Source of the DNA: Vannielia litorea | Lineage (GTDB): Bacteria; Pseudomonadota; Alphaproteobacteria; Rhodobacterales; Rhodobacteraceae | DNA length: 64,000 nt | Assembly: GCF_900142295.1 (NCBI RefSeq) | Contig: NZ_FSRL01000001.1 | Location: forward strand, 248,001 to 312,000 | Direction of reading: 5' to 3' | In this document: positions 51,728 to 64,000 of the stretch, one piece after another | Layout of the letters: every line of letters begins with the position of its first letter | Position numbering within the stretch: position 1 is the stretch's first letter | Translations under genes and position numbers: made by a program | The notes under the pieces: generated by a model | What the model saw: the letters and a program-made list of their open reading frames with translations, nothing else | Databases searched by the model: none | What the model was told of the DNA's origin: nothing

Positions 51728-52519
51728 TCAGTCCCGATAATTTCGGATCGCGCCTTGATCAATTTGTTTCGCAGGAACTAGTCGATAATGACGCTCTTCG
51801 ACGACGCGAATTTCATCTTCCTGCAATGTAAGCTCAAAAAGTGCAACCACGTCATCGCCCATGAATTGCGCTGCGATTGCGCGGCATCGCATACCAGAGA
51901 ACTTTTCTTCTACAAAACGAATATCTTGAGAAATCTGGACGATACCAATTTGATCTTTTCCACCCTTGGCCTGTACTGGAATGACGTAGTGACAGCCTCT
52001 CTTGTCAATCCCGACATAAAGCTCATCTATTTCAATCTGCCCAACACCCTTTACGGTTGTGCGCAGATGGTTCTGGAGACTGTAAGTGGTAAGTCCCAAG
52101 AAGGTGTCGATTAGGCGGTTGTAGCGCACGATCGCAAGTAGTGCCTGCTCATCGTCCAGAGCATATGCACGAATAATTTCTGGGGTAGCGTCGGGAATGT
52201 CGATCCGCGCAAGGTCTTCGCGTGGCAATACCCGATTGATCTTGACGAGAGAGAACCTATATTTGGCTCTTCCTGCAAGCTCTATAACCCACTCCTTACC
52301 TTCAGGTTGTGTGGCAATAATTTTTTCCGGCAGGTCGGTTCTAAAGCGAAAGGAATAAATCACGTCACCCAGGTTGTCCGGCAATACAATGCCTAGGTGG
52401 GCGGCCGCGTCTTTTATCTCAGGTCGCGTGAAGTCAAGTGACGTTTTTCCATCACTATAATGATCGAAGAAAATCTTCTCGATAAGAGCCTGATATCGGT
52501 TTCGAACTTTGCTAGCCAT
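51728..52519 (-). CDS. Putative restriction endonuclease of the C5-methylase unit
   Basis: A 263-residue protein starting MASKVRNRYQALIEKIFF. The likely PD-(D/E)XK core is IEIDELYVGIDKRG, a strand, then VIPVQAKGGKDQIG. Its start lies inside the methyltransferase 3' end (eight-base overlap); the in-frame start at 52552 would overlap more. Adjacent methylase and Vsr genes make it the natural restriction partner. The cut site is not readable. Confidence 0.75.
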   Translation of the reverse strand: MASKVRNRYQALIEKIFFDHYSDGKTSLDFTRPEIKDAAAHLGIVLPDNLGDVIYSFRFRTDLPEKIIATQPEGKEWVIELAGRAKYRFSLVKINRVLPREDLARIDIPDATPEIIRAYALDDEQALLAIVRYNRLIDTFLGLTTYSLQNHLRTTVKGVGQIEIDELYVGIDKRGCHYVIPVQAKGGKDQIGIVQISQDIRFVEEKFSGMRCRAIAAQFMGDDVVALFELTLQEDEIRVVEERHYRLVPAKQIDQGAIRNYRD

Positions 52520-53879
52520 AAATCTTCTGCCCCGACAGTCTTTCTCTCTCAATATCAGCTTGCTTGCGTTTCTTTGCTCCGCTCTTTTGATCTCGACGAC
52601 TTGGCAGTGGCTTTACGCCAAAATGAGCAGCGGCCTTCGACAAGTCCATTGATAATAGTTCTTCAGACCCAAGAGGGATAATTTGGGCGGGACGTGCTGG
52701 ACGGAAATCGAGAGATTCAATCACCTGCGTTGCAATCGCTCGTGCAAGAGGTGGAGGAACGGCATTTCCGATCTGGCGTGCTCCGTGCCATTTTGTAACA
52801 TTGAAGCGAAACCAGTCAGGGAAGCCATGTAGTCGTGCCATTTCCCGTACTGTCACGCATCGGTCATAGCGGTAGTGGATGGGTCTGGGGCTCGTGAATG
52901 CGCCCCGTGCACCGTCTGTACCGGCGCGAAGAGTATTTGAAACCCCCCGCGAAGGCAGCTTGAAGAAACGACTGATTGGCTCAACAGAGCCTGGCTCGGT
53001 TTCGGAGAAGCGCCGCTGCGAAATCTCCGTATGAGCTGTACGTGCACTGGAAGTCAGCAGAGCAGGATTCCACTCCCGCACGTAGCCGAAATGCCAAGCG
53101 TCGTTTGTCATACAGCGCAACTCGGCTGAATACGGCGAAGGCGCTCCGAACGCACTGGTTTTCACAGCATCACTAGTGAGCAAACTCTGAAATTTGTCGG
53201 CGTCGGGAAGATCGGCCAATGCATCTGTGCAAGTGGGTCCTGATGGCAAGCCATCCCTTGTTCCTTTACGCCCCGCAATATTGGTAGCCGGATCGGGGTA
53301 CTCTGGCAGTGCTTCGCCCTTGCGGCATCCAAACAGTATCAGTCGCTCTCGGGATTGCGGCGTTCCGTAGTTTCCCGCATTCAACACCTTCCAAGGGGTT
53401 CTCACTTCATACCCTGCGGCATCAAACGCTTGAACCAATTCCTTTAGGAATGCTTTGTGCTTGCCGACAGTGAGACCTTTTACGTTTTCAAACACAAAGG
53501 TTCGAGCTTTCAACTCGGCGACAATGCGGACAAAGTCTAGAACAAGGCTGTTTCGAGGGTCATCCAATACGCGGTGACCAATAAGCGAAAAGCCCTGGCA
53601 AGGAGCTCCCCCGAAGACGCAATCCACTGGAGCGTTGCCGATGCTGGCAACCTTTCGAATAAGCTCGCCGCTCAATCCTTCCACCGAGCGAGGAATAATG
53701 GCGGTCTTCGGGAAATTGAACTTATGGACAGCGCAATGCACAGGGTCGATTTCAACAGCGGCAGCTATATCGAAACCTGCTTGCTCGAAACCGAGGCTCA
53801 TGCCGCCTGCGCCTGCAAACAGGTCGATGCCTATCGGTCGGTGGGGTTCGTCGTCGATCATGGGCCTGTGCTGATTCAT
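52512..53879 (-). CDS. DNA (cytosine-5)-methyltransferase
   Basis: A 455-residue C5-methylase. Motif I is DLFAGAGGMSLGFEQAGF, motif IV GGAPCQGFSLIG with the catalytic Cys, motif VI FVFENVKGL, motif VIII GVPQ-like NYGTPQSRERLILFG, and motifs IX-X VREMARLHGFPDWF and RQIGNAVPP. The variable target-recognition region lies between about 245 and 330. An alternative start at 53861 exists. It protects host DNA from the neighbouring endonuclease. Confidence 0.93.
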   Translation of the reverse strand: MNQHRPMIDDEPHRPIGIDLFAGAGGMSLGFEQAGFDIAAAVEIDPVHCAVHKFNFPKTAIIPRSVEGLSGELIRKVASIGNAPVDCVFGGAPCQGFSLIGHRVLDDPRNSLVLDFVRIVAELKARTFVFENVKGLTVGKHKAFLKELVQAFDAAGYEVRTPWKVLNAGNYGTPQSRERLILFGCRKGEALPEYPDPATNIAGRKGTRDGLPSGPTCTDALADLPDADKFQSLLTSDAVKTSAFGAPSPYSAELRCMTNDAWHFGYVREWNPALLTSSARTAHTEISQRRFSETEPGSVEPISRFFKLPSRGVSNTLRAGTDGARGAFTSPRPIHYRYDRCVTVREMARLHGFPDWFRFNVTKWHGARQIGNAVPPPLARAIATQVIESLDFRPARPAQIIPLGSEELLSMDLSKAAAHFGVKPLPSRRDQKSGAKKRKQADIERERLSGQKIYG

Positions 53880-53921
53880 GTGGATAGCTTACCGTGAATA
53901 TCACAGCATGTCGATCGGCTT

Positions 53922-54329
53922 CTAGCTTTCATCCACAAATTGTTGTAGCCGCTCAGCGAGAGCCGCTCGATCTCTCGTTTGACACTGCCACACAACAAGG
54001 ACTGTCCACCCCATCGCTTCCAGTTGGCCAGTCTTCGCGGTGTCACGGCGAACGTTGGCAGCCAGCTTTGGTAGCCAGTAGTCTTGTCGAGACTTGGGCG
54101 GTTGCCCCTTAGCGCAACCGTGCGCATGCCAGAAACAACCATGTACCAAGATGATCTTTCGGTATTTTGGCAGAACGATGTCGGGCTTGCCTGGCAGGTC
54201 GTTGCGGTGGAGCCGGAAGCGGTAGCCTTGTGCATGCAGCAGGCTCCTGACCAGAACCTCTGGTCGGGTGTTCCTGCTCTTGACAGCTTGCATGATGCGC
54301 CGTCTCTGCTCTGGGCTGCGTGTGTCCAT
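53922..54329 (-). CDS. vsr: Very short patch repair endonuclease (Vsr)
   Basis: A 135-residue mismatch nuclease. It has the family opening SPEQRRRIMQAVKSRNTRPE, the catalytic D in GKPDIVLPKYRKIILVHGCFWHAHGC, and the zinc-site residues around CFWHAHGC. Vsr cuts at T:G mismatches left by deamination of 5-methylcytosine, so it protects the sites of the methylase encoded 42 bp downstream. The start at 54329 gives normal family length; longer frames are unsupported. It is the first gene of the five-gene minus-strand run. Confidence 0.93.
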   Translation of the reverse strand: MDTRSPEQRRRIMQAVKSRNTRPEVLVRSLLHAQGYRFRLHRNDLPGKPDIVLPKYRKIILVHGCFWHAHGCAKGQPPKSRQDYWLPKLAANVRRDTAKTGQLEAMGWTVLVVWQCQTRDRAALAERLQQFVDES

Positions 54330-54899
54330 GTGTCTACCTATCAGGCACGCCCGCTGACCGACAGCACTCGCTACCAGTGAGAAGCGGAAGGTCTCATGAT
54401 CGGGTTCAGCGCCGACGCGCTGGCGGCATCCAATCCGCGGAGGGTTGGTCAGGGGTCCACGGGGGCAGGAACGCCCCGTGGTCGATGGGATGGTTCCAAG
54501 GCAAGGGCAGCTATGAAATGCTCGCTTCCTGGTCTCGATGAAGTCGTCTCCATGACATGGCGCGCATCCAAACTGCGGAAGGTTGGTCTCCATGAAATGG
54601 TGGTGATCGGACGGCCAGACGTTCGTGCATGGTTCGGTGTTGGTGGAGAGGCACGTCTCCAAGCCCAACGACTGATTGAACGGGGATACGTTCTACTGGC
54701 TCTGGATGGGTTCAATGCCCAGGAAGAGCCACTGGCCGGGGGGATGCAACGGGGGCGCGCAGCGGGACCCCTTGCCAAGCGCGTGGTACTACCACGCACA
54801 GCTTGCGTTCGCTCCTAGTCCTGCCGTCATCCTTAGGGGACAAGTGGTAGTACCAAGTTTGAGATGCTGCTAGCGCTAAGGCTTTGTGCAGAGGAAGCG
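54330..54899. other. Repeat-bearing region upstream of the restriction/Gabija genes
   Basis: No supported gene. Two imperfect 25-base direct repeats (54426-54450 and 54564-54588; 22 of 25 match), two 15-base repeats differing at one base and exactly 40 bp apart (54546-54560 and 54586-54600, GTCTCCATG-C/A-CATGG type), and two GTGGTA-centred palindromes at 54781-54797 and 54845-54855. This is the expected place for control of the restriction operon. Confidence 0.5.
54781..54797. promoter_or_regulatory. Palindrome GCGTGGTA-C-TACCACGC
   Basis: Perfect eight-base arms about one central base. A related palindrome, TGGTA-G-TACCA, lies at 54845-54855, 58 bp away centre to centre. Their shared core suggests binding sites for one dimeric regulator; the regulator is unknown. 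Confidence 0.45.
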
Positions 54900-55622
54900 T
54901 TATGCCGCTGTCTTATTTACTAGCGTAGTGTCGACCAACCATGCCACCCACCGCCGTAGAAACTCTTTGTAGTTGTCCTCGCTGATACGCAAAATATTAA
55001 TCCGTTCAAGTTCGCCCATACCGAAGCGGCAATCACCTTCAGCGTGTTGGCATTGGGGCTTCCCATACTTTCCGCTGACGAATGCGTACATTCTTACCGC
55101 TGCGCCATCTGTACTGTGGCCGTTCTCATCAAGGTAAGCGATGCCGCCATGTGCCATGGCATTTCGGAGGACACTTACCCACTGAGACGCGTTCATCTCG
55201 TGCGCTCTCTTTTCCGCATCTGCGCCTCTTAGTTCGTTGGCGAGTTCCGTGGAAAGCCCCTTGGCAATGTTAGGCAGAGTCTTCGGCTCCACCTGTACGA
55301 AATGCCACACACCCGTTTGATAGAACGGTGCGTCGGAGAGCCTACCCTTACGTATGACGTCGTCAAAAGCCTTCTCTGCCTCAGCATTCAGATGCCGATC
55401 ATCAGCGTATGTTGCTCCCTCCGGCTTATTAATATGCCGCTCGATCCGCTCTAGCGGGATGTTGATAACTGGGATGGACATAGACAGCAGAAAGGTTGAT
55501 GTCAGTGGCCCTAGGTCCGGTCTTTCTCCACCGTGCACTTCGCAGGCAGCAGGCCAGAGCTTCTCTATAAGCTCAAGGCAGCGTACAGGCAGTTCGATTC
55601 CGTAATGCTTCGGATTTCCCAT
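54900..55622 (-). CDS. HEPN-motif hypothetical protein
   Basis: A 240-residue protein beginning MGNPKHYGIELPVRCLEL. The start at 55622 has GGAGG seven bases upstream, better than the earlier in-frame ATGs at 55634 and 55727. Residues near 165-175 read VLRNAMAHGG, a perfect R-x4-H motif of HEPN RNases, in a predicted helix. The remainder is helical except for a short DENGHSTDGAAVRMYAF turn. HEPN proteins are frequent in defence and toxin modules. No nucleotidyltransferase partner is coupled to it; a multi-RHH protein is divergent. Confidence 0.65.
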   Translation of the reverse strand: MGNPKHYGIELPVRCLELIEKLWPAACEVHGGERPDLGPLTSTFLLSMSIPVINIPLERIERHINKPEGATYADDRHLNAEAEKAFDDVIRKGRLSDAPFYQTGVWHFVQVEPKTLPNIAKGLSTELANELRGADAEKRAHEMNASQWVSVLRNAMAHGGIAYLDENGHSTDGAAVRMYAFVSGKYGKPQCQHAEGDCRFGMGELERINILRISEDNYKEFLRRWVAWLVDTTLVNKTAA

Positions 55623-55736
55623 GCTTTCCTCCATGATTCCGATAAGCTCTTGCTCCTTTCCATACTGAACCTGATCGCTTGGACATAGGTTCGGTTTTAC
55701 TTGCTCGGCGGAGGGCCAGCGCGTCATATATAGATT

Positions 55737-56744
55737 GTGATGGATGGGGCGGCTTTTCCGGTGCTAAGGCGCTCAAAGATGGGGGAGACCTTCCGGTCAT
55801 CGGTCCTCCGGCTCGCTCACGAGGATCGTGCGGAGTTTTTTGAGCCTCGGCGTTCCAGAACCTTTCCATGGTACTTGGTACTCTTTCGTATTGCCCTTGA
55901 GGACTGTTCAGGATCGCTAAGGCTTTTCTCGAAGGGCGTGGACGATGACCGGACCCAGCGGCGCGCCCGAGAAGTTGTCGGGATTTTGCGCGAGCTGCAT
56001 TCTGATCGTTGTCTAATCCCGCAGCCGGGGCTTGCCGCTCGGCTGCTGCGTGAGGCGCTGGACAACCAACCGCTCTTTGATGATCTGGCTCGCCAGATCA
56101 TGATCGATGTGGGGCCACATCTAAACAATGCAGAAGAAGTCGCGCGCTATGGTAGGAAGAAGCATGCGTACAAGCTGCCCCGTCGTCCGGCTCGCAAGCG
56201 CCAGCAACTTACAGATGCAGAGCAGCCTGGATGGGCGGGAGTGAACAGAATGCCGTCGCAGAAGGTCCAGATGCCGTGCCGCGTCGTACCCGACATCAAG
56301 AAGCTCATAGAGGATGAAGCTTTTCACGTAGGCATCAGTCAGAGCCGATGGCTTGAAGAGGCGATAGCGGAAAAGCTCCAGCGTCAGGGACACCCAGTCT
56401 ACCTCCCCGCGCCATCGAAAGCGCCCAAGACGTCCGAAGGCAGTGCCAGACGCCCTCGGCGCGCTTCACTTCCCCATCCAGACAAGTCGCGCAGCTCTGC
56501 CGCGAACCGCGCCGACAAGATGACCACCGTTCGGTTTAGCCGAACGCTTGCGGCGCAGATCGACAGAGCCCGTGGCCGCACGGAACGCTCGGCATGGGTG
56601 AACGAGGCGGTGAGCTCCTTCATGAACGAGGAGGCAAGGCTGCCCGAAGCACTCGCCCCAAAGCAGGCGTTGCCTGTGGCTGTGTCAGTTGGGTTCGATC
56701 ACCAAATTTTTTGCTGCCATCGAACGCGCTGCGAAGAAATCTAA
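55737..56744 (+). CDS. Multi-RHH DNA-binding protein, frameshifted near the C-terminus
   Basis: The frame gives 335 residues (a start at 55779, MGETFRSSV, is also possible). The first 140 are helical and unrecognised. Then come two ribbon-helix-helix-like segments: VQMPCRVVPDIKKLIEDE through WLEEAIAEKL (about 180-222) and MTTVRFSRTLAAQIDRA through WVNEAVSSFM (about 262-300). After residue 318 the frame degenerates, while the +1 frame continues as a third RHH (ITKFFAAIERAAKKSK, then SECIRRMATWYL) to a stop at 56803-56805. A one-base shift near 56694 explains this. Confidence 0.6.
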   Translation: MMDGAAFPVLRRSKMGETFRSSVLRLAHEDRAEFFEPRRSRTFPWYLVLFRIALEDCSGSLRLFSKGVDDDRTQRRAREVVGILRELHSDRCLIPQPGLAARLLREALDNQPLFDDLARQIMIDVGPHLNNAEEVARYGRKKHAYKLPRRPARKRQQLTDAEQPGWAGVNRMPSQKVQMPCRVVPDIKKLIEDEAFHVGISQSRWLEEAIAEKLQRQGHPVYLPAPSKAPKTSEGSARRPRRASLPHPDKSRSSAANRADKMTTVRFSRTLAAQIDRARGRTERSAWVNEAVSSFMNEEARLPEALAPKQALPVAVSVGFDHQIFCCHRTRCEEI

Positions 56745-57054
56745 GCTTACCAAGTCCGAGTGCATTCGCCGTATGGCTACATGGTATCTTACTGATAAAT
56801 CATAGTTTTATTCGGCTTAGAGTGTATTGCGTTAGCGGTTGCATGTGATCGCATTGGACGGGTCGAAATTTGAGCCCGCATTTTCTTTTTGTCGCCCCCA
56901 TATCGGCTGAGCAACGGGAAACGACCCGGAGCAGCAAGCCTGAGGGGATGCTCCCCGAAACACACGAAGAAGACCAAACCCGCCGGAGACATGCGCTTTC
57001 CGGTGACCTGAAACCTGCGTCCTGACGGACGCCGAAAATAACAAAGGAAAGACA

Positions 57055-57354
57055 ATGTACGCACCCAATAACTACCCTCCACGCGGGCCGCAGAGCCCGA
57101 TGGATGATATCAAAGGCGGATTTGCGACCACGGCTGCGGCCATGGTGGCGATCCTTCTCGGCTCTCCGTTCAACGCGCTGACAGCACCGTATGTCACCGC
57201 AATGGCAGAGCGCTCCTATTCCTATGAGGTCGTCGATCTCATCGGAATTGCCTGGATGATCTTGGCGTACCCGTTCGTGTTCTTCGCGGCGCGGGCAAGC
57301 ATTCTCGCAGCCCTCACGGCGGCGGGCGTGTACCTCGCCTACAGATTCATCTGA
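57055..57354 (+). CDS. Small membrane protein of the transfer module
   Basis: A 99-residue protein with a polar N-terminus (MYAPNNYPPRGPQSPMDD) and two or three hydrophobic segments (ATTAAAMVAILLGSPFN, LIGIAWMILAYPFVFFAA, LAALTAAGVYLAYRF). AAAGGAAAG upstream supports the start. It is the first of three small membrane genes leading to the coupling protein. Confidence 0.7.
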   Translation: MYAPNNYPPRGPQSPMDDIKGGFATTAAAMVAILLGSPFNALTAPYVTAMAERSYSYEVVDLIGIAWMILAYPFVFFAARASILAALTAAGVYLAYRFI

Positions 57355-57386
57355 ACCCAGAAACCCACATCAGAAAAGGAAATACC

Positions 57387-57614
57387 ATGATTAACCGTGC
57401 ACCCAAAACGATCACCAACCCGCTCGCCGAGTTGGCTCAGAACGCACTCTTTATTCTTGGCGCGATCATCGCGTTGGCGGCTTTCGGCGCGTTCTCAAAC
57501 GGTGAATATCTGGGAATGCTGATCTGCGGCGGTCTCTCTCTCGGAGCATTCCAATGGGGCGCGTCGATCAAGACGCGTTGGAACGCCAAAAGCCAAATTA
57601 CCACTTACGAGTGA
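57387..57614 (+). CDS. Small membrane protein of the transfer module
   Basis: A 75-residue protein with two hydrophobic helices (ALFILGAIIALAAFGAF and YLGMLICGGLSLGAFQWGA) and short polar ends. AAAAGGAAA lies upstream of the ATG. No family recognised; it presumably assists the coupling protein or is a small membrane chaperone. Confidence 0.65.
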   Translation: MINRAPKTITNPLAELAQNALFILGAIIALAAFGAFSNGEYLGMLICGGLSLGAFQWGASIKTRWNAKSQITTYE

Positions 57615-57697
57615 TTGCAATGCTTGGCGATCCCGTTTCGGCGGGGTCGCCATCCCATCCACATCCTCAAACCTCAATACAAATAAAGGAGTAAACC

Positions 57698-57937
57698 ATG
57701 GACGCTTTCTCTCAGATCTCGGCGCAGAACAGTGTGCTGCACTTAATTGCCCGTCCCTTCAAATGGCTTTGGGAGCTAAATGAGACGCATTGGATGAATC
57801 CTCTCATCCTGATGATCTGCTGGCCCGTGATGTTCAATGTCACAGCCGCGCTCTTCCCGCCAATTGAAAATAGCTGCTGGCTAAATTCCAGTTCAATCGT
57901 TCCCGTAGCCTTCAGCGATGAGGGGGATCAGCCATGA
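57698..57937 (+). CDS. Small membrane protein coupled to the T4CP
   Basis: A 79-residue protein with AAGGAG eight bases upstream and one main hydrophobic helix (WMNPLILMICWPVMFNVTAALF). Its stop overlaps the T4CP start by four bases. The T4CP lacks its own N-terminal membrane helices, so this protein may supply the membrane anchor; that is inference. Confidence 0.65.
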   Translation: MDAFSQISAQNSVLHLIARPFKWLWELNETHWMNPLILMICWPVMFNVTAALFPPIENSCWLNSSSIVPVAFSDEGDQP

Positions 57938-59577
57938 ACCCCATCGATTATCCGTACGGCTCGGCGCGTTTTGCGGATGAGATGGAAGTCCTGCGGGCGT
58001 TCCGTGATCAGGGTGGTGTGCCCTTCGGCTTCTATAATGGGCGTAAGCTCTTCCACGCCAAACAAGCTGGCATGCTGCTGATCGGCGGGGCGGGCTCCGG
58101 CAAGTTCACGAGCGTTCTTGCGCACCTGATGGACGCGCCAGGCCGCAAGGGCGAGCCGCCGCGCTATGCGATCTTCGATCCCAAGCGCGAGCTGCGGGCA
58201 GTCTTGGAGCCGTATTTCGCGCACATCAAGGCAGCCGTCTATGAGATCAATCCCTATCTCACCCACGGCGTGCAGGGCCACCGTCTCTCGGTGCTCTCGC
58301 ACCTGACGCCGCAATCGCCGCGACTGGTCGCGGACAGCCGAAGGGCAGCACGCACCTTGATCGCGGAAAGCGGCGGCGGCGATGCCCGCTTCTTCGAGCA
58401 GAAGGCACAAAACTGGCTCGATCCGCTGATCCGGGGGCTCGTGCACCTCGATGGCGGGGTCTCCCCGAGTTCGCTCTATGAGCTGGTCGGCATGATCCGC
58501 TCCGCTCCCGAAGCCTGGGCTGAAGTCTCGGAGCTGATGGAAGCGCTCGGCGAGCCGGACTTGCACGTTACCTTCGCCGAGATGCGGAATATGGCCGAAG
58601 ATGCCAGCCGCACTTTCGAATCCGTGATGGCGGAAATCACGAACGCCCTGGCCTTCATGAACGATCCGAGGCTGCAAGAGACCTTCGTGGCATCGGCGCA
58701 AGCGGATTTCTCGCTTGATGTGCTTTGCGAAAATTCAAGGCAGTCCGTCTTTGTGTTCTTCGTCATGCCGCCGGAGATGACGCAGCAGAATGCGGCGCTC
58801 ATCCGCCAGTTCTTCTCGACTTTGCGCACGCTTAAGCAGGTAAGGCCGGAGGCTCCGACGCTGAACCTCGTCATCGATGAGGCCGCCCAGCTCGGAGCCT
58901 TCCCTGAAATTGCAGAGTTCTATTCCATCGGTCGAGGCTTTGGTCTGTGCCCGGTTTGCGTCTATCAGGATATCGGCCAGATCAGAAAGAACCTGGGGCC
59001 AACGGGAGCGATGACGCTCTCGGCCAGCGCGGACCTCGAAGTCTATCTCGGCGGCGGAATCTCCGACCTTGAGACCGCAAGGATGCTGAGCGCCAAGCTT
59101 GGCAACCAGACCCTCGCTCTGGAAGATCACCTCGTCCAGCATCGTGCGCAGCGCTCCCGCCGCGAAGCGCTATTGGATGCGTTCAGTGGGCGGAGCGATC
59201 CCTTGAAAACAGGATCGGCGCTGCGCGCGCTGGACTATGAGCAGCAGCATAAGCGCAAGCTCTCACGTCCGCTCTGCACGCCCGAGGAAATCCTTGCCAT
59301 GGCGCAAAGCCAAGCGCTCGTCATGCCGTCCGGCTACGGCATCCCGCCATTCTTCGCGGCCAAAACACCGTACTACGCGAACAAAGCCTACACAGGCCTC
59401 TACGGCCCGAACCCGTACTTTGACCGAGAGTTAAGCGCGGTCAGCGTCCCTGGCCGATGGGGCGGCACGTCCAGTCTGCGCGTCATTCGCGAGACTGTAC
59501 CCGCCAGTCATGCCCACCTTCCGCAATACAAACACGGCGAATGGCAATTCATCGAAGGCCACCCTCCGCAATCCTGA
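57934..59577 (+). CDS. Type IV coupling protein (TraG/VirD4 family)
   Basis: A 547-residue ATPase that would bring the relaxase-DNA complex to a helper secretion channel. Walker A is LIGGAGSGKFTSVL near residue 48, with FDPKRELRA soon after, and Walker B is LNLVIDEAAQLGAFPEI. A VYQDIGQIRKNLG segment follows as in VirD4-type proteins. The sequence begins directly with the soluble part: the usual two N-terminal membrane helices are missing. The three preceding small membrane proteins may compensate. Confidence 0.88.
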   Translation: MNPIDYPYGSARFADEMEVLRAFRDQGGVPFGFYNGRKLFHAKQAGMLLIGGAGSGKFTSVLAHLMDAPGRKGEPPRYAIFDPKRELRAVLEPYFAHIKAAVYEINPYLTHGVQGHRLSVLSHLTPQSPRLVADSRRAARTLIAESGGGDARFFEQKAQNWLDPLIRGLVHLDGGVSPSSLYELVGMIRSAPEAWAEVSELMEALGEPDLHVTFAEMRNMAEDASRTFESVMAEITNALAFMNDPRLQETFVASAQADFSLDVLCENSRQSVFVFFVMPPEMTQQNAALIRQFFSTLRTLKQVRPEAPTLNLVIDEAAQLGAFPEIAEFYSIGRGFGLCPVCVYQDIGQIRKNLGPTGAMTLSASADLEVYLGGGISDLETARMLSAKLGNQTLALEDHLVQHRAQRSRREALLDAFSGRSDPLKTGSALRALDYEQQHKRKLSRPLCTPEEILAMAQSQALVMPSGYGIPPFFAAKTPYYANKAYTGLYGPNPYFDRELSAVSVPGRWGGTSSLRVIRETVPASHAHLPQYKHGEWQFIEGHPPQS

Positions 59578-60200: not shown

Positions 60201-61754
60201 ATGGGCTATGTTCAAAAAATCGAAGGCGATGCGCCCGCCGCGCTTATCTATTGCCGCGTATCGTCTACCAAGCAGAAGGTAGACGGGAGCGGCCTGGAGA
60301 GCCAAGAGCAGCGCTGCCGCTCGTACGCCGACATGCACGGCTATGCGGTGGAGGCTGTGTTCCCCGATGATGTCTCTGGCGGCGGCGATTTCATGAAGCG
60401 CCCCGGTATGGTTGCGCTGCTGAGCTTCCTCGATGCCCAGCCGGGCAAGCCTTACGTCATTATTTTTGACGATCTTAAGCGCTTTGCCCGTGACCGTGAC
60501 TTTCACTGGAAGCTGAGAAAGGCATTGTCCGCGCGCGGCGCGGTGCCGAAGTGTCTGAACTTCAATTTTGAGGATACGCCCGAAGGCGAATTCATCGAAA
60601 CGATTATGGCGGCACAAGGTCACCTTGAGCGCGAACAGAACCGCCGCCAAGTGATCCAGAAAATGAAAGCGCGCGTTGAAGCAGGCTATTGGGTGTTCCG
60701 CGCCCCGGTCGGATACAAACACGTTTCCGCCAAGGGAGGTGGCGGCAAGGTGCTTGTACCTGATGAGCCTCTAGCCTCTGTCGTGCGCGAAGCTTTGGAC
60801 GGCTATGCCTCTGGCCGCTTTGTCAGCCAAGCCGAAGTGCAGCGCTTTTTAGAGCGCGATCCGCATTTCCCGAAAGACCGCAAGGACGGCTCACTTCGCC
60901 CCATGACAGTCACGCGCCTTCTCAAGAAAGTCGTCTATGCGGGCTATGTCGAGGCCCCGAAGTGGGGCGTGACCGTACGCGAAGGTCAGCATGACGGTCT
61001 TATCAGCTTCGAGACATACCAGCGTATTCAGGACAATCTGGAGGGCAAGAAACGCGCTCCGGCTGCGCGGAAGGACTACCACATCGATTTCCCGCTGCGC
61101 GGGTTCGTCGCCTGTAACTGCTGCGGCAATGCCATGACGGCGGCTTGGTCCACAGGCTGCCGCAAGCGCTACGCCTATTACAGATGCGAGACGCGCGGCT
61201 GCGAAGAAAAGAGCAAAGGCATTCCGCGTGCCAAGATGGAAGAAGCCTTCGAAGGCATCCTCCAGAGCCTCACACCATCTCGCAAGCTCTTCGGGCTGGT
61301 AAAGGCAATGTTCGCTGATGCCTGGGAGATGAGGAGCGCTCAAGCCCATGCGGCGCGGGATGAGTGGAAGCGCCAGCTCAAGGACGCTGAGAAGCAGGTT
61401 GAAGGCCTCATCGACCGCCTGGTCGATACCGAGAACCGCACGGTCGCGAAGAAGCTGGAAGAGCGCATTGACGCTCTGGAGCGGCAGAAGCTCGTGCTGG
61501 CCGAAAAGGCCACGAAAGAGCTGCCAACCAAGGCAAGGCTGGAGGATTGTATGGAACTAACTCTCCGATTCCTCTCAAGCCCTTGGAATATCTATAAGAA
61601 TGGCACTCATGCGGTGCAGCAAACAGTGCTCAGACTGGCCTTCGCAGAGCCTCTGAGATACTGCCGAAATAATGGGTATGGAACTATAAAAACTGCCTTT
61701 CCCTTCAAGGTGTTAGGGGATTTGACAGGCCTAAATGGAGAAATGGTGCTGTGA
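60201..61754 (+). CDS. Large serine recombinase (integrase of the element)
   Basis: A 517-residue integrase. The resolvase domain has the catalytic Ser in IYCRVSSTKQKVDGSGLE and the arginine block DDLKRFARDR; the recombinase domain follows (APVGYKHVSAKGGGGK, GYASGRFVSQAEVQRFLERD), then a zinc ribbon CNCCGNAMTAAW with a second Cys pair CETRGCEEK, and a coiled coil (about 395-440). AGGAGG precedes the ATG. The last three codons (Met-Val-Leu-stop) lie in the tRNA-Thr gene, so integration sets this C-terminus. In the excised form the frame would run 45 codons further. Confidence 0.92.
   Translation: MGYVQKIEGDAPAALIYCRVSSTKQKVDGSGLESQEQRCRSYADMHGYAVEAVFPDDVSGGGDFMKRPGMVALLSFLDAQPGKPYVIIFDDLKRFARDRDFHWKLRKALSARGAVPKCLNFNFEDTPEGEFIETIMAAQGHLEREQNRRQVIQKMKARVEAGYWVFRAPVGYKHVSAKGGGGKVLVPDEPLASVVREALDGYASGRFVSQAEVQRFLERDPHFPKDRKDGSLRPMTVTRLLKKVVYAGYVEAPKWGVTVREGQHDGLISFETYQRIQDNLEGKKRAPAARKDYHIDFPLRGFVACNCCGNAMTAAWSTGCRKRYAYYRCETRGCEEKSKGIPRAKMEEAFEGILQSLTPSRKLFGLVKAMFADAWEMRSAQAHAARDEWKRQLKDAEKQVEGLIDRLVDTENRTVAKKLEERIDALERQKLVLAEKATKELPTKARLEDCMELTLRFLSSPWNIYKNGTHAVQQTVLRLAFAEPLRYCRNNGYGTIKTAFPFKVLGDLTGLNGEMVL
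61743..61749. repeat. Right attachment core (attR)
   Basis: ATGGTGC, overlapping the tRNA 3' end (complement of GCACCA-T). It matches the left copy at 38717-38723. Confidence 0.65.
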
Positions 61755-61818
61755 GAGAGGATTGAACTCTCGACCTCACCCTTACCAAGGGTGTGCTCTA
61801 CCACTGAGCTACCACAGC
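61744..61818 (-). tRNA. tRNA-Thr (GGT anticodon)
   Basis: On the minus strand it starts GCTGTGGTAGCTCAGTGGTA and ends with encoded CCA. The anticodon stem CACCC/GGGTG holds loop TTGGTAA, giving anticodon GGT. The acceptor stem pairs over seven bases with one G-U. The T-arm is GAGAG-TTCAATC-CTCTC. The gene is intact despite the insertion at its 3' end; the recombinase stop overlaps it. Confidence 0.96.
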
Positions 61819-61905: not shown

Positions 61906-62877
61906 TCACGGCATTTTCGGCGACATTTTCAACCTTCCCCGCCATCCGAAGGCGCCGGTGAGGCGAGGGGCCCGTGCGCCGGTGCCCTCGGCGGCCAGTT
62001 GGCGCAGCCGCTCCATCAGCCGCAGCTCGACTCCCGCCTGTGTCTTCACCCGCTCCGGGTCGGGGTGGCCGGTGCCGAAGCGGATGTAGGGGTTGGTGTT
62101 GAGCTCGAACACGGCAATCCCGCTGTCGGCCAGGCCAAAGTCCACCCGGCCAAAGTCCTGCCCGGCGAGAGCCATCACCCGCCGCACCACCTCGGCATGC
62201 GGGTAGGCGTGCATCTCGGCTTCGTCGGCGGCGTATTGCGCGGCGCTCGCCGCACCCACCTCGCCCGACTTGGCCACCCAGTGCCGCTGGCTCACCGTCA
62301 AGGCCGGCACCACGTCGCCTTGCACCGCATAGGCCGCGCGCTTGCGAAACACCCCGCCTTCCCGTGCGAGCCCGGCATATTCGATGAACATGAGATCCGC
62401 GAGCGCATGGCCCGCCGCCAGCGCCGCCGTCAGGGCTGCATCGGCCTGATCCGGTGTCTCGAGCAGGTCGCCGATGACCCCGCGGTGCGCCCAGCCGGTC
62501 CGCAGGAAGCACGGAAACCGCTCCGGCCGTTCCCCCAGCACCGGCAGCCAGCAGCCGAACCGGTTGATCCCCTCGCGCTGCAAGGCCTTCAGCAGGGCCG
62601 CGCGCGGCATGAAGCGGGCCGGGTCGTTGAGCACCGGGGCGCCGGTCTCGGCGGTCCTTGCCCGGAGCGTTGCCGCCACCTCGAGCCAGGGCGGTGACAT
62701 CCGCTCGAAATCGGTGAAGACCGCGCTGCCCGCCGGCAACCGCCACGCCCGCGCCGCGGCCTCGTAGCCCATCAGCTTCACCCGGAAACCCGCTTTCGGG
62801 GCCTTTGCCCGGATTTCCCTGAAGGTATTCAGCCGCCGTCCGGTGGCATAGATCACAAGGCGGGGCAGGCGGGGCAT
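61906..62877 (-). CDS. ATP-grasp protein, possible peptide ligase
   Basis: A 323-residue protein starting PRLPRLVIYATGRRLNTF. An N-terminal preATP-grasp-like Rossmann part leads to a central VLNDPARFMPRAALLKAL, and to the metal-binding signature VDFGLADSGIAVFELNTNP near residue 265 (Asp, Glu, Asn-x-Asn-Pro). ATP-grasp enzymes activate carboxylates and join them to amines; in RiPP pathways they crosslink or extend peptides. It is divergent from a small Gly/Lys-rich gene 70 bp away, so it may modify that product, or serve an unrelated ligation. Confidence 0.7.
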   Translation of the reverse strand: MPRLPRLVIYATGRRLNTFREIRAKAPKAGFRVKLMGYEAAARAWRLPAGSAVFTDFERMSPPWLEVAATLRARTAETGAPVLNDPARFMPRAALLKALQREGINRFGCWLPVLGERPERFPCFLRTGWAHRGVIGDLLETPDQADAALTAALAAGHALADLMFIEYAGLAREGGVFRKRAAYAVQGDVVPALTVSQRHWVAKSGEVGAASAAQYAADEAEMHAYPHAEVVRRVMALAGQDFGRVDFGLADSGIAVFELNTNPYIRFGTGHPDPERVKTQAGVELRLMERLRQLAAEGTGARAPRLTGAFGWRGRLKMSPKMP

Positions 62878-62887
62878 TTCGGGCTTC

Positions 62888-62916
62888 TTGACATGCAGGC
62901 TGAGCTAAAGGTTAAT
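62888..62916 (+). promoter_or_regulatory. Sigma-70-like promoter of the small-peptide gene
   Basis: TTGACA (62888-62893), a 17-base spacer, then GTTAAT. It lies 31 bp upstream of the peptide ATG and just beyond the start of the divergent ATP-grasp gene. Confidence 0.5.
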
Positions 62917-62947
62917 CGAGCCACGCTGTAGACGAAAGGATGTTTCA

Positions 62948-63145
62948 ATGACGATCAAGATTGACGAGAAGAAACTGCTCGGCTTCCGGCTCGAGTCCGA
63001 GGCTTCCGGCGGCCTGAAGATGGGCGACAAGGGCGGCGGTGCCCTCGGCCTGAAGGCAGGGGCCAAGGTGACCGGTCCGATGAGCCTGAAGATGGGCACC
63101 AAGACTGGCGGGGGCCAGCCGGCCGGTTCGCAGGGCACGCTCTGA
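62948..63145 (+). CDS. Candidate RiPP precursor peptide, Gly/Lys-rich
   Basis: A 65-residue peptide with AAGGA seven bases upstream of its ATG. Residues 1-20 (MTIKIDEKKLLGFRLESEAS) have a leader-like mix of Lys, Leu, Phe and Glu. Residues 21-65 are Gly/Lys-rich with two copies of LKMG-x-K (23-28 and 47-52) and LKAGAK between them (35-40). There is no membrane helix, no Cys and almost no acidic residue in the second half. It lies ten bases before the HExxH gene, so it is the likely substrate. It could instead be a small structural protein. Confidence 0.6.
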   Translation: MTIKIDEKKLLGFRLESEASGGLKMGDKGGGALGLKAGAKVTGPMSLKMGTKTGGGQPAGSQGTL

Positions 63146-63155
63146 CCACAGCCTG

Positions 63156-64000
63156 ATGTCTTTAGAAAATCTGCTGGCCTTCCCGCCCGATGCTGCTCGG
63201 GCGGGTTTCGTCGATGCGCGGATGCACCGTGAGCTGGCCGCCAGTCTCGCACATATCGCCGCGGCCTGCGCCGAGGCGGGCCACCCGGCCGCACCGCTCC
63301 TGTCCCAGGCCTCCGACCTTGTCGCCCGAACCCGCGTCGGCCCCGAGGCCTTTGCCCGCTACTACCTGATCGGCAGCGCCCTTCTGGCCGGCGAAGACGC
63401 CGGCCTCGAGGCCGAGGCAAAGGCGCTCCTGTCCGATGTCCGCGCCGGGCGGGCACCCTTCCGGGTCTCGCCACGCGGCGGGGCAGGGGAGGTCGACGCG
63501 CTCATGGACCGCCAGATGGGCGACGAAGCCGTCAATTTCGCACCGGTGTCGCACGAGACCGCCGACGCCTTCGGCACGCGCCTCGCCGCCGGGCTCGACC
63601 TTCTGCGCCAAGGCCTGCCGGAGCTTCACGCAGAGATCACGAGCATCGTTCACCACGTCGTCTGCGCCGTCGCACCGGAAGGGTCGGCCATGCAGTTCGA
63701 CGGCGCCTCGCACTACCAGTTCTGGGGCCTGCTGCTGCTCAATCCCACCTTCCACACCACGCGCCTCGCCGTGGCCGAAGTGCTGGCCCACGAAAGTGCC
63801 CACTCGCTGCTCTTCGGCCTCACCATCGACGAACCCCTCACCCTCAATCCGGGCGAGGAAACCTATGCCTCCCCCCTCCGCGCCGACCCGCGCCCGATGG
63901 ATGGCATCTACCACGCCACCTTCGTCTCCGCCCGGATGGCCTGGGCGATGGAGGGCCTCGCCGCCTCCGGTCTGCTCTCCCCCGAAGAGGTCGATGCCGC
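63156..64000 (+). CDS. HExxH-type peptide hydroxylase-like protein (partial)
   Basis: The first 281 codons of a gene running off the right edge. The product begins MSLENLLAFPPDAARAGF with a helical N-terminal half. The key region is AEVLAHESAHSLLFGL, with His212, Glu213 and His216 as HExxH, then YASPLRADPRPMDGIYHATF, where His253 is the likely third metal ligand. This ordering, with SPLRxDPRPMDG before the last His, fits the HEXXH-domain family of RiPP clusters, reported members of which are 2-oxoglutarate-dependent peptide beta-hydroxylases, not proteases. It is encoded just after the candidate precursor. Confidence 0.68.
   Translation, partial: MSLENLLAFPPDAARAGFVDARMHRELAASLAHIAAACAEAGHPAAPLLSQASDLVARTRVGPEAFARYYLIGSALLAGEDAGLEAEAKALLSDVRAGRAPFRVSPRGGAGEVDALMDRQMGDEAVNFAPVSHETADAFGTRLAAGLDLLRQGLPELHAEITSIVHHVVCAVAPEGSAMQFDGASHYQFWGLLLLNPTFHTTRLAVAEVLAHESAHSLLFGLTIDEPLTLNPGEETYASPLRADPRPMDGIYHATFVSARMAWAMEGLAASGLLSPEEVDA

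Follow-up and report, generated by a model that had tools for sequence, protein, structure and literature searches.

The 64,000-nucleotide stretch of DNA analyzed here (termed the window) comprises positions 248,001 to 312,000 of contig NZ_FSRL01000001.1 of Vannielia litorea (assembly GCF_900142295.1, forward strand). Three genes at its end encode a divergent ATP-grasp ligase, a short peptide and a protein with an HExxH motif, and an initial annotation had proposed them as a possible undescribed cluster for a ribosomally synthesized and post-translationally modified peptide (RiPP). The features of this trio are listed below (aKG, alpha-ketoglutarate).

61906..62877, minus strand: divergent ATP-grasp ligase gene, 323 residues
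62948..63145, plus strand: predicted precursor peptide gene, 65 residues
62948..62992, plus strand: leader-like residues 1-15 (MTIKIDEKKLLGFRL), a putative leader that fits the family consensus LDxxKLLGF[K/R][L/I]
63011..63031, plus strand: core unit 1, GLKMGDK, residues 22-28, K-x-G-x-K motif
63047..63067, plus strand: core unit 2, GLKAGAK, residues 34-40, K-x-G-x-K motif
63083..63103, plus strand: core unit 3, SLKMGTK, residues 46-52, K-x-G-x-K motif
63156..64000, plus strand: predicted aKG-HExxH-type peptide hydroxylase gene, truncated at the edge of the window
63789..63803, plus strand: HESAH motif, residues 212-216; H-E-x-x-H is invariant in 54 rows and aligns with ChlH
63870..63926, plus strand: SPLRADPRPMDGIYHATFV motif, residues 239-257, which aligns with SPWREDLRPPSGLLHAIFV of ChlH
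61744..61818, minus strand: tRNA-Thr(GGT), the boundary of the trio locus

The sequence AAAGGA precedes the peptide's ATG by seven bases, and, as had been noted, ten bases separate the peptide's stop from the HExxH gene, which begins at 63156. Read in the genome beyond the window, the whole HExxH gene encodes 323 residues (L002:5157-6128). The trio sits between tRNA-Thr and murA and is a settled chromosomal locus, because two further loci (L004 and L005) carry tRNA-Thr, ATP-grasp, peptide, HExxH and murA in the same order. The named close homologs come from Vannielia and Oceanicola. No transporter or protease gene was recognized beside the trio.

The cut HExxH protein scored 87.2 bits against TIGR04267 (aKG-HExxH-type peptide beta-hydroxylase; cut-off, 40), and 106.3 bits were obtained on the genome. 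The HExxH motif, a downstream SPxRxDxRPxxGxxH motif and, in the predicted model (predicted local distance difference test, pLDDT, 97.4), the ChlB-HExxH fold were all present. Profile, motif and predicted fold thus bear out the earlier suggestion that HExxH and a downstream His mark a 2-oxoglutarate-dependent peptide beta-hydroxylase, and support the prediction of an aKG-HExxH-type peptide hydroxylase.

The peptide has the leader-like start and the two LKMG-x-K repeats (residues 23-28 and 47-52) that had been described, with a related third unit, LKAGAK, at 35-40; the leader-like part covers residues 1-15. The core had been said to lack Cys and acidic residues; the first part held, but Asp27 lies within the first repeat (Glu16 and Glu18 lie ahead of it). 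This residue is conserved in three of six aligned close peptides, the window peptide counted. Five homologs besides the window peptide share its features. Comparison of its gene with the L005 ortholog gave proportions of nonsynonymous and synonymous differences (pN and pS) of 0.158 and 0.557 (dN 0.18, dS 1.0), so the peptide is under purifying selection at the protein level.

Related loci were gathered in a single scan with the HExxH alignment, which returned 67 with the window's own excluded. Precursors were identified by an automatic screen requiring a leader-like motif with two or more K and two or more G after it. This rule yielded 58 peptides (59 with the window's) from 50 of the 67 loci, and 24 peptides gave the leader consensus LDxxKLLGF[K/R][I/L], with variants. 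K-x-G-x-K occurred 160 times in the cores and was present in 51 of 59, compared to 6.9 in composition-keeping shuffles. When 13 additional peptides read by eye were included, K-x-G was found in all cores but one (71 of 72, the exception being L064; shuffled mean 43, maximum 54). Four residues was by far the commonest spacing of successive lysines (172 of 352 pairs). An acidic residue stood at i+4 for only 1 of 211 K-x-G lysines; after the first K-x-G, 25 of the 59 cores had no D or E, and D+E made up 3.4% of that stretch. By eye, the C-termini of the 59 precursors had no evident common pattern.

The ATP-grasp protein is as divergent as had been claimed: neither it nor five relatives matched a Pfam or NCBIfam family above cut-off. 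Against the rimK_fam model TIGR00768 the window protein gave no match, and the L008 relative scored 15.9 bits where 143.4 are needed. The predicted model (pLDDT 94.7) has a RimK/LysX/ArgX-like fold. D246, E258 and N260, which we take to be the usual ATP-grasp metal-site positions, are conserved (53 rows). The fold match was 14.4 to PsnB and 19.2 to RimK, values that leave room for kinship with PsnB.

For each of the 67 loci, ligases were sought within 3 kb using profiles built for this analysis. A short ATP-grasp like that of the window was present in 47, a long, cyanophycin-synthetase-like ATP-grasp in 11, both in none and neither in 9; among the 11, L063 scored only 168 bits and L050 was cut by a contig end. 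The initial annotation had proposed checking whether the three genes co-occur; relatives of all three are indeed clustered in many other bacteria. The short and long types are mutually exclusive at these loci; the zero overlap has a chance probability of 1.3e-7 under the assumption of independent loci, which holds only in part. At three of the nine loci with neither type (L065, L067 and L069) an AMP-binding (adenylation) enzyme lies directly downstream of the HExxH gene, complete in L067 and L069 with carrier and thioesterase-like parts (the L069 thioesterase match fell below the Pfam cut-off). A precursor with the core L[LF]SK[IVR]G stands ahead of the HExxH gene in all three. These cores (LLSKIG, LLSKVG, LFSKRG) differ from the others yet keep K-x-G. 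Because K-x-G persists even there, the HExxH enzyme and the K-x-G site are the constant pair, and the carboxylate-activating partner the variable part.

The long-ligase label (12 rows, with L057 and L063 included) requires five changes on the HExxH tree, at least four of which are forced by well-supported branches (a quick method, using only the Shimodaira-Hasegawa-like approximate likelihood-ratio test, SH-aLRT): the ligase partners were exchanged more than once. The rest of the nine loci with neither type within 3 kb are L057, L043, L068, L018, L037 and L066. In L057 there are two long-type matches of lower score (91 and 87 bits). A short ATP-grasp of 398 bits with one internal stop lies 5.5 kb downstream in L043, and the L068 genome has a long-type ligase on another stretch (E 2.9e-86). 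Apart from precursors, antisense reading frames and the long ligase, the 25 most recurrent neighbor clusters comprised only genes common to related Burkholderiales or Rhodobacterales loci.

Some loci depart from the simple trio. Histidinibacterium lentulum (L006 and L102, of the same sequence) has six precursor genes, two tandem ATP-grasp genes and one HExxH gene, and a second HExxH-precursor pair with a different core (L018) is found in the L006 genome. L037 (4589-11374) has, in a row, a short precursor, a 350-residue protein that no Pfam family matches, the HExxH gene and a 1467-residue multidomain glycosyltransferase; it is perhaps a glycosylated variant.

Co-occurrence was also assessed in whole genomes. 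Among 295 genomes of the family, the HExxH profile matched 13 and the ATP-grasp profile 14. All eight with an ATP-grasp above 280 bits also have an HExxH gene, adjacent in the loci that were read. Four genomes with only the ATP-grasp scored 184-203 bits, and together with a second copy in the window's own genome (204 bits) these proteins look like a sister group. That second, distant copy (G000:C1:2527949-2528821, minus strand; read in L096:7824-8825) adjoins a methyltransferase (by Pfam) and genes resembling, by eye, a tripartite tricarboxylate transporter. Similar ATP-grasp/methyltransferase-like pairs are present in L097-L101, where HExxH gave no match; across the six loci read (L096-L101), the methyltransferase-like gene was recognized by eye, and by Pfam for L096 only. 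Among 337 genomes of the class, 9 had an HExxH match and 14 an ATP-grasp match, which in 10 of the 14 scored below 50 bits. Besides the window genome, only G474 holds both HExxH and the short ATP-grasp, at least 190 kb apart, and its HExxH gene is adjoined by a long-type ligase (L146).

These data describe a precursor with a putative leader and a core, beside dedicated modifying enzymes and conserved together with them, which is the architecture of a RiPP. Architecture, clustering and motifs all support the interpretation first offered, and by architecture the system is apparently a RiPP family that combines a known oxygenase family with a new ligase family and a new core. As had been supposed, no product of this kind was found described: a search of openly licensed PMC papers returned no description of the combination of HExxH, ATP-grasp and K-x-G peptide. 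We put the probability at roughly 55% that the three genes together make one modified peptide by K-x-G hydroxylation and ATP-grasp acyl joining. In the proposed scheme, for which we infer the leader function, the site and order of the reactions, the joined group and the biological role, the segment around LDxxKLLGF would be recognized by the HExxH enzyme. This Fe(II)/alpha-ketoglutarate oxygenase would then hydroxylate the repeated K-x-G sites of the core, with the lysine as the likeliest target because almost every core keeps it. The ATP-grasp would convert a carboxylate to an acyl phosphate and form an amide or ester, thereby attaching an amino acid or another small acid to the peptide; the lysines (at the amine or the new hydroxyl) are the most probable point of attachment, the C-terminus a less probable one. 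Lysine is favored as the acceptor because it is conserved, because acidic residues are scarce and because adenylation enzymes occur at some loci. In relatives, the ligase is replaced by the cyanophycin-synthetase-like ATP-grasp or the adenylation enzyme, with the HExxH family and the K-x-G cores both retained. A broader version is offered more tentatively, and we hold it to be somewhat doubtful: a widespread RiPP family in which K-x-G lysines would be hydroxylated, then acylated or aminoacylated by one of three interchangeable carboxylate activators (a RimK-like ATP-grasp, a cyanophycin-synthetase-like ATP-grasp or an adenylation-carrier-thioesterase module) to give a polycationic peptide decorated at several sites, a kind of product so far undescribed.

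Several points weigh against these proposals. The screen found no precursor in 17 of the 67 loci, and the K/G richness of the cores was partly selected by its rule (the K-x-G order was not). In two of the 67 (L037 and L066), no ATP-grasp ligase of either type exceeded 40 bits genome-wide. Of 11 further HExxH loci without the short ATP-grasp, eight (L114, L117 and L147-L152) showed none of the three ligase types in the roughly 1.5 kb of flank checked per side. Conversely, 6 of the 14 ATP-grasp-bearing family genomes had no HExxH match, two of the six being under 40 bits, and four class-sample loci (L142-L145) have ATP-grasp relatives without an HExxH gene, so relatives of the short ATP-grasp serve elsewhere as well. 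At one of these loci (L145:5939-7842), two ATP-grasp genes in tandem scored 252 and 253 bits, and genes close by resemble, by eye, those of an ABC transporter. Lysine, finally, would be a new target residue for aKG-HExxH enzymes, the known ones acting on Asp, His, Phe, Gln and Pro according to PMC12636437 and PMC13060819.

The site of joining invites a different reading. The nearest folds of the ATP-grasp are RimK and LysX/ArgX, which activate the carboxylate of a peptide or protein. Cyanophycin synthetase is a relative of the replacement ligase, and its G domain activates a carboxylate and extends the C-terminus (PMC9262961). By analogy, this chemistry would favor the C-terminus over lysine as the acceptor: the ATP-grasp would activate the peptide's C-terminus and add at least one amino acid, with the HExxH enzyme hydroxylating the repeats independently. 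We regard this as unlikely, as it is the lysine repeats that are patterned and not the 59 C-termini, and adenylation enzymes, which activate a small acid and not the peptide, stand in the same place. Less probable still is a graspetide-like route in which the ATP-grasp would link lysines of the core to acidic residues in the linker or core through isopeptide bonds and the HExxH enzyme would hydroxylate the same lysine. Corallotide offers a precedent (CorA/CorB/CorC, graspetide group 15): an ATP-grasp and a 2-oxoglutarate (2OG) oxygenase act on one lysine, ligase first (PMC13097080). Against it stand the scarcity of acidic residues at i+4 and in the cores at large, and the conservation of Asp27 in only half of the close peptides. 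Neither conserved acidic acceptors in the core nor a known graspetide synthetase family for the ATP-grasp was found, and a standard graspetide, which the initial annotation had likewise discounted, was rejected.

It is quite improbable that the peptide is instead a multi-site ribosomal carrier, on whose lysines or C-terminus the ligase would build small molecules for later release, the peptide itself not being the product. LysX/ArgX, which are close to the ATP-grasp in fold, act on the carrier protein LysW; each peptide has many equal sites, and the lack of a recognized transporter or protease beside the window's trio would fit, but no release enzyme was recognized among the 25 most recurrent neighbor clusters. 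The least credible option casts the HExxH protein as an ordinary metallopeptidase responsible for maturing the peptide. The motif is shared, and the same-family PflC can cleave a backbone according to PMC12636437; on the predicted model, this option was nonetheless set aside as improbable.

Other origins for the trio were also considered. A serine recombinase gene (in the 60201-61818 region) ends inside the tRNA-Thr gene (overlap 61744-61754), which suggests that the tRNA was the integration site of an element; a second copy of its 3' end (the attachment site) was not found within the window. Genes for a C5 DNA methyltransferase, a Vsr mismatch endonuclease and a conjugation coupling protein lie upstream (52512-59577) and are perhaps parts of the same element. 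That the trio is cargo of this element was rejected, as the tRNA-Thr intervenes and L004, which aligns with the window from tRNA-Thr onward but not over the recombinase, keeps the trio and murA. Both are likewise retained in L005, although there the alignment extends over the recombinase as well. A defense system was rejected (no PADLOC match for the three proteins), as were a phage gene set (no phage match for the HExxH protein, the only one searched there) and a plasmid gene set (only two distant plasmid matches for the ATP-grasp, the only one searched there).

The preferred reading, joint lysine hydroxylation and acyl joining, would be a coherent and testable addition to RiPP biology, with an ATP-grasp family that lacks a Pfam or NCBIfam model and a repeat core that lacks graspetide acidic partners. 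The swapping of different carboxylate activators beside the same oxygenase and core motif is a natural experiment. Lysine is predicted as a new aKG-HExxH target, in short substrates with several equal sites.

Among known systems, RimK, LysX and ArgX are the nearest solved folds to the window ATP-grasp (residues 5-302), at 14-18% identity, but the window protein is partnered with a repeat RiPP-like peptide. The long ligases are related to residues ~117-570 of CphA (cyanophycin synthetase), and their alignment to its model is confined to the N-terminal and ATP-grasp part; the seven that were scanned have 601-696 residues and scored 204-264 bits versus cut-offs of 850-877. Corallotide (PMC13097080) likewise pairs an ATP-grasp with a 2OG oxygenase on a repeat peptide; there, however, the oxygenase CorC belongs to PF13640, the synthetase CorB to TIGR04187 and the motif is KxxxD, whereas the trio has an HExxH oxygenase, an ATP-grasp without a family model and KxxxK without a conserved acidic partner. 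By profile and motif, ChlB-HExxH (8s5f), SjiH (22ob), PflC/PosC, PesO and BpmH belong to the same enzyme family as the window HExxH protein, whose full-length predicted fold agrees with both 8s5f and SjiH. The HExxH network of PMC12636437 names rSAM (radical SAM)-fused, biphenomycin and MNIO-nitroreductase clusters. Like the window enzyme, the known aKG-HExxH peptide hydroxylases are encoded beside a small precursor gene. Unlike their clusters, the window locus has no transporter or protease recognized nearby, and in place of radical SAM, MNIO or asparagine-synthetase-like partners it features an ATP-grasp ligase and a K-x-G repeat core.
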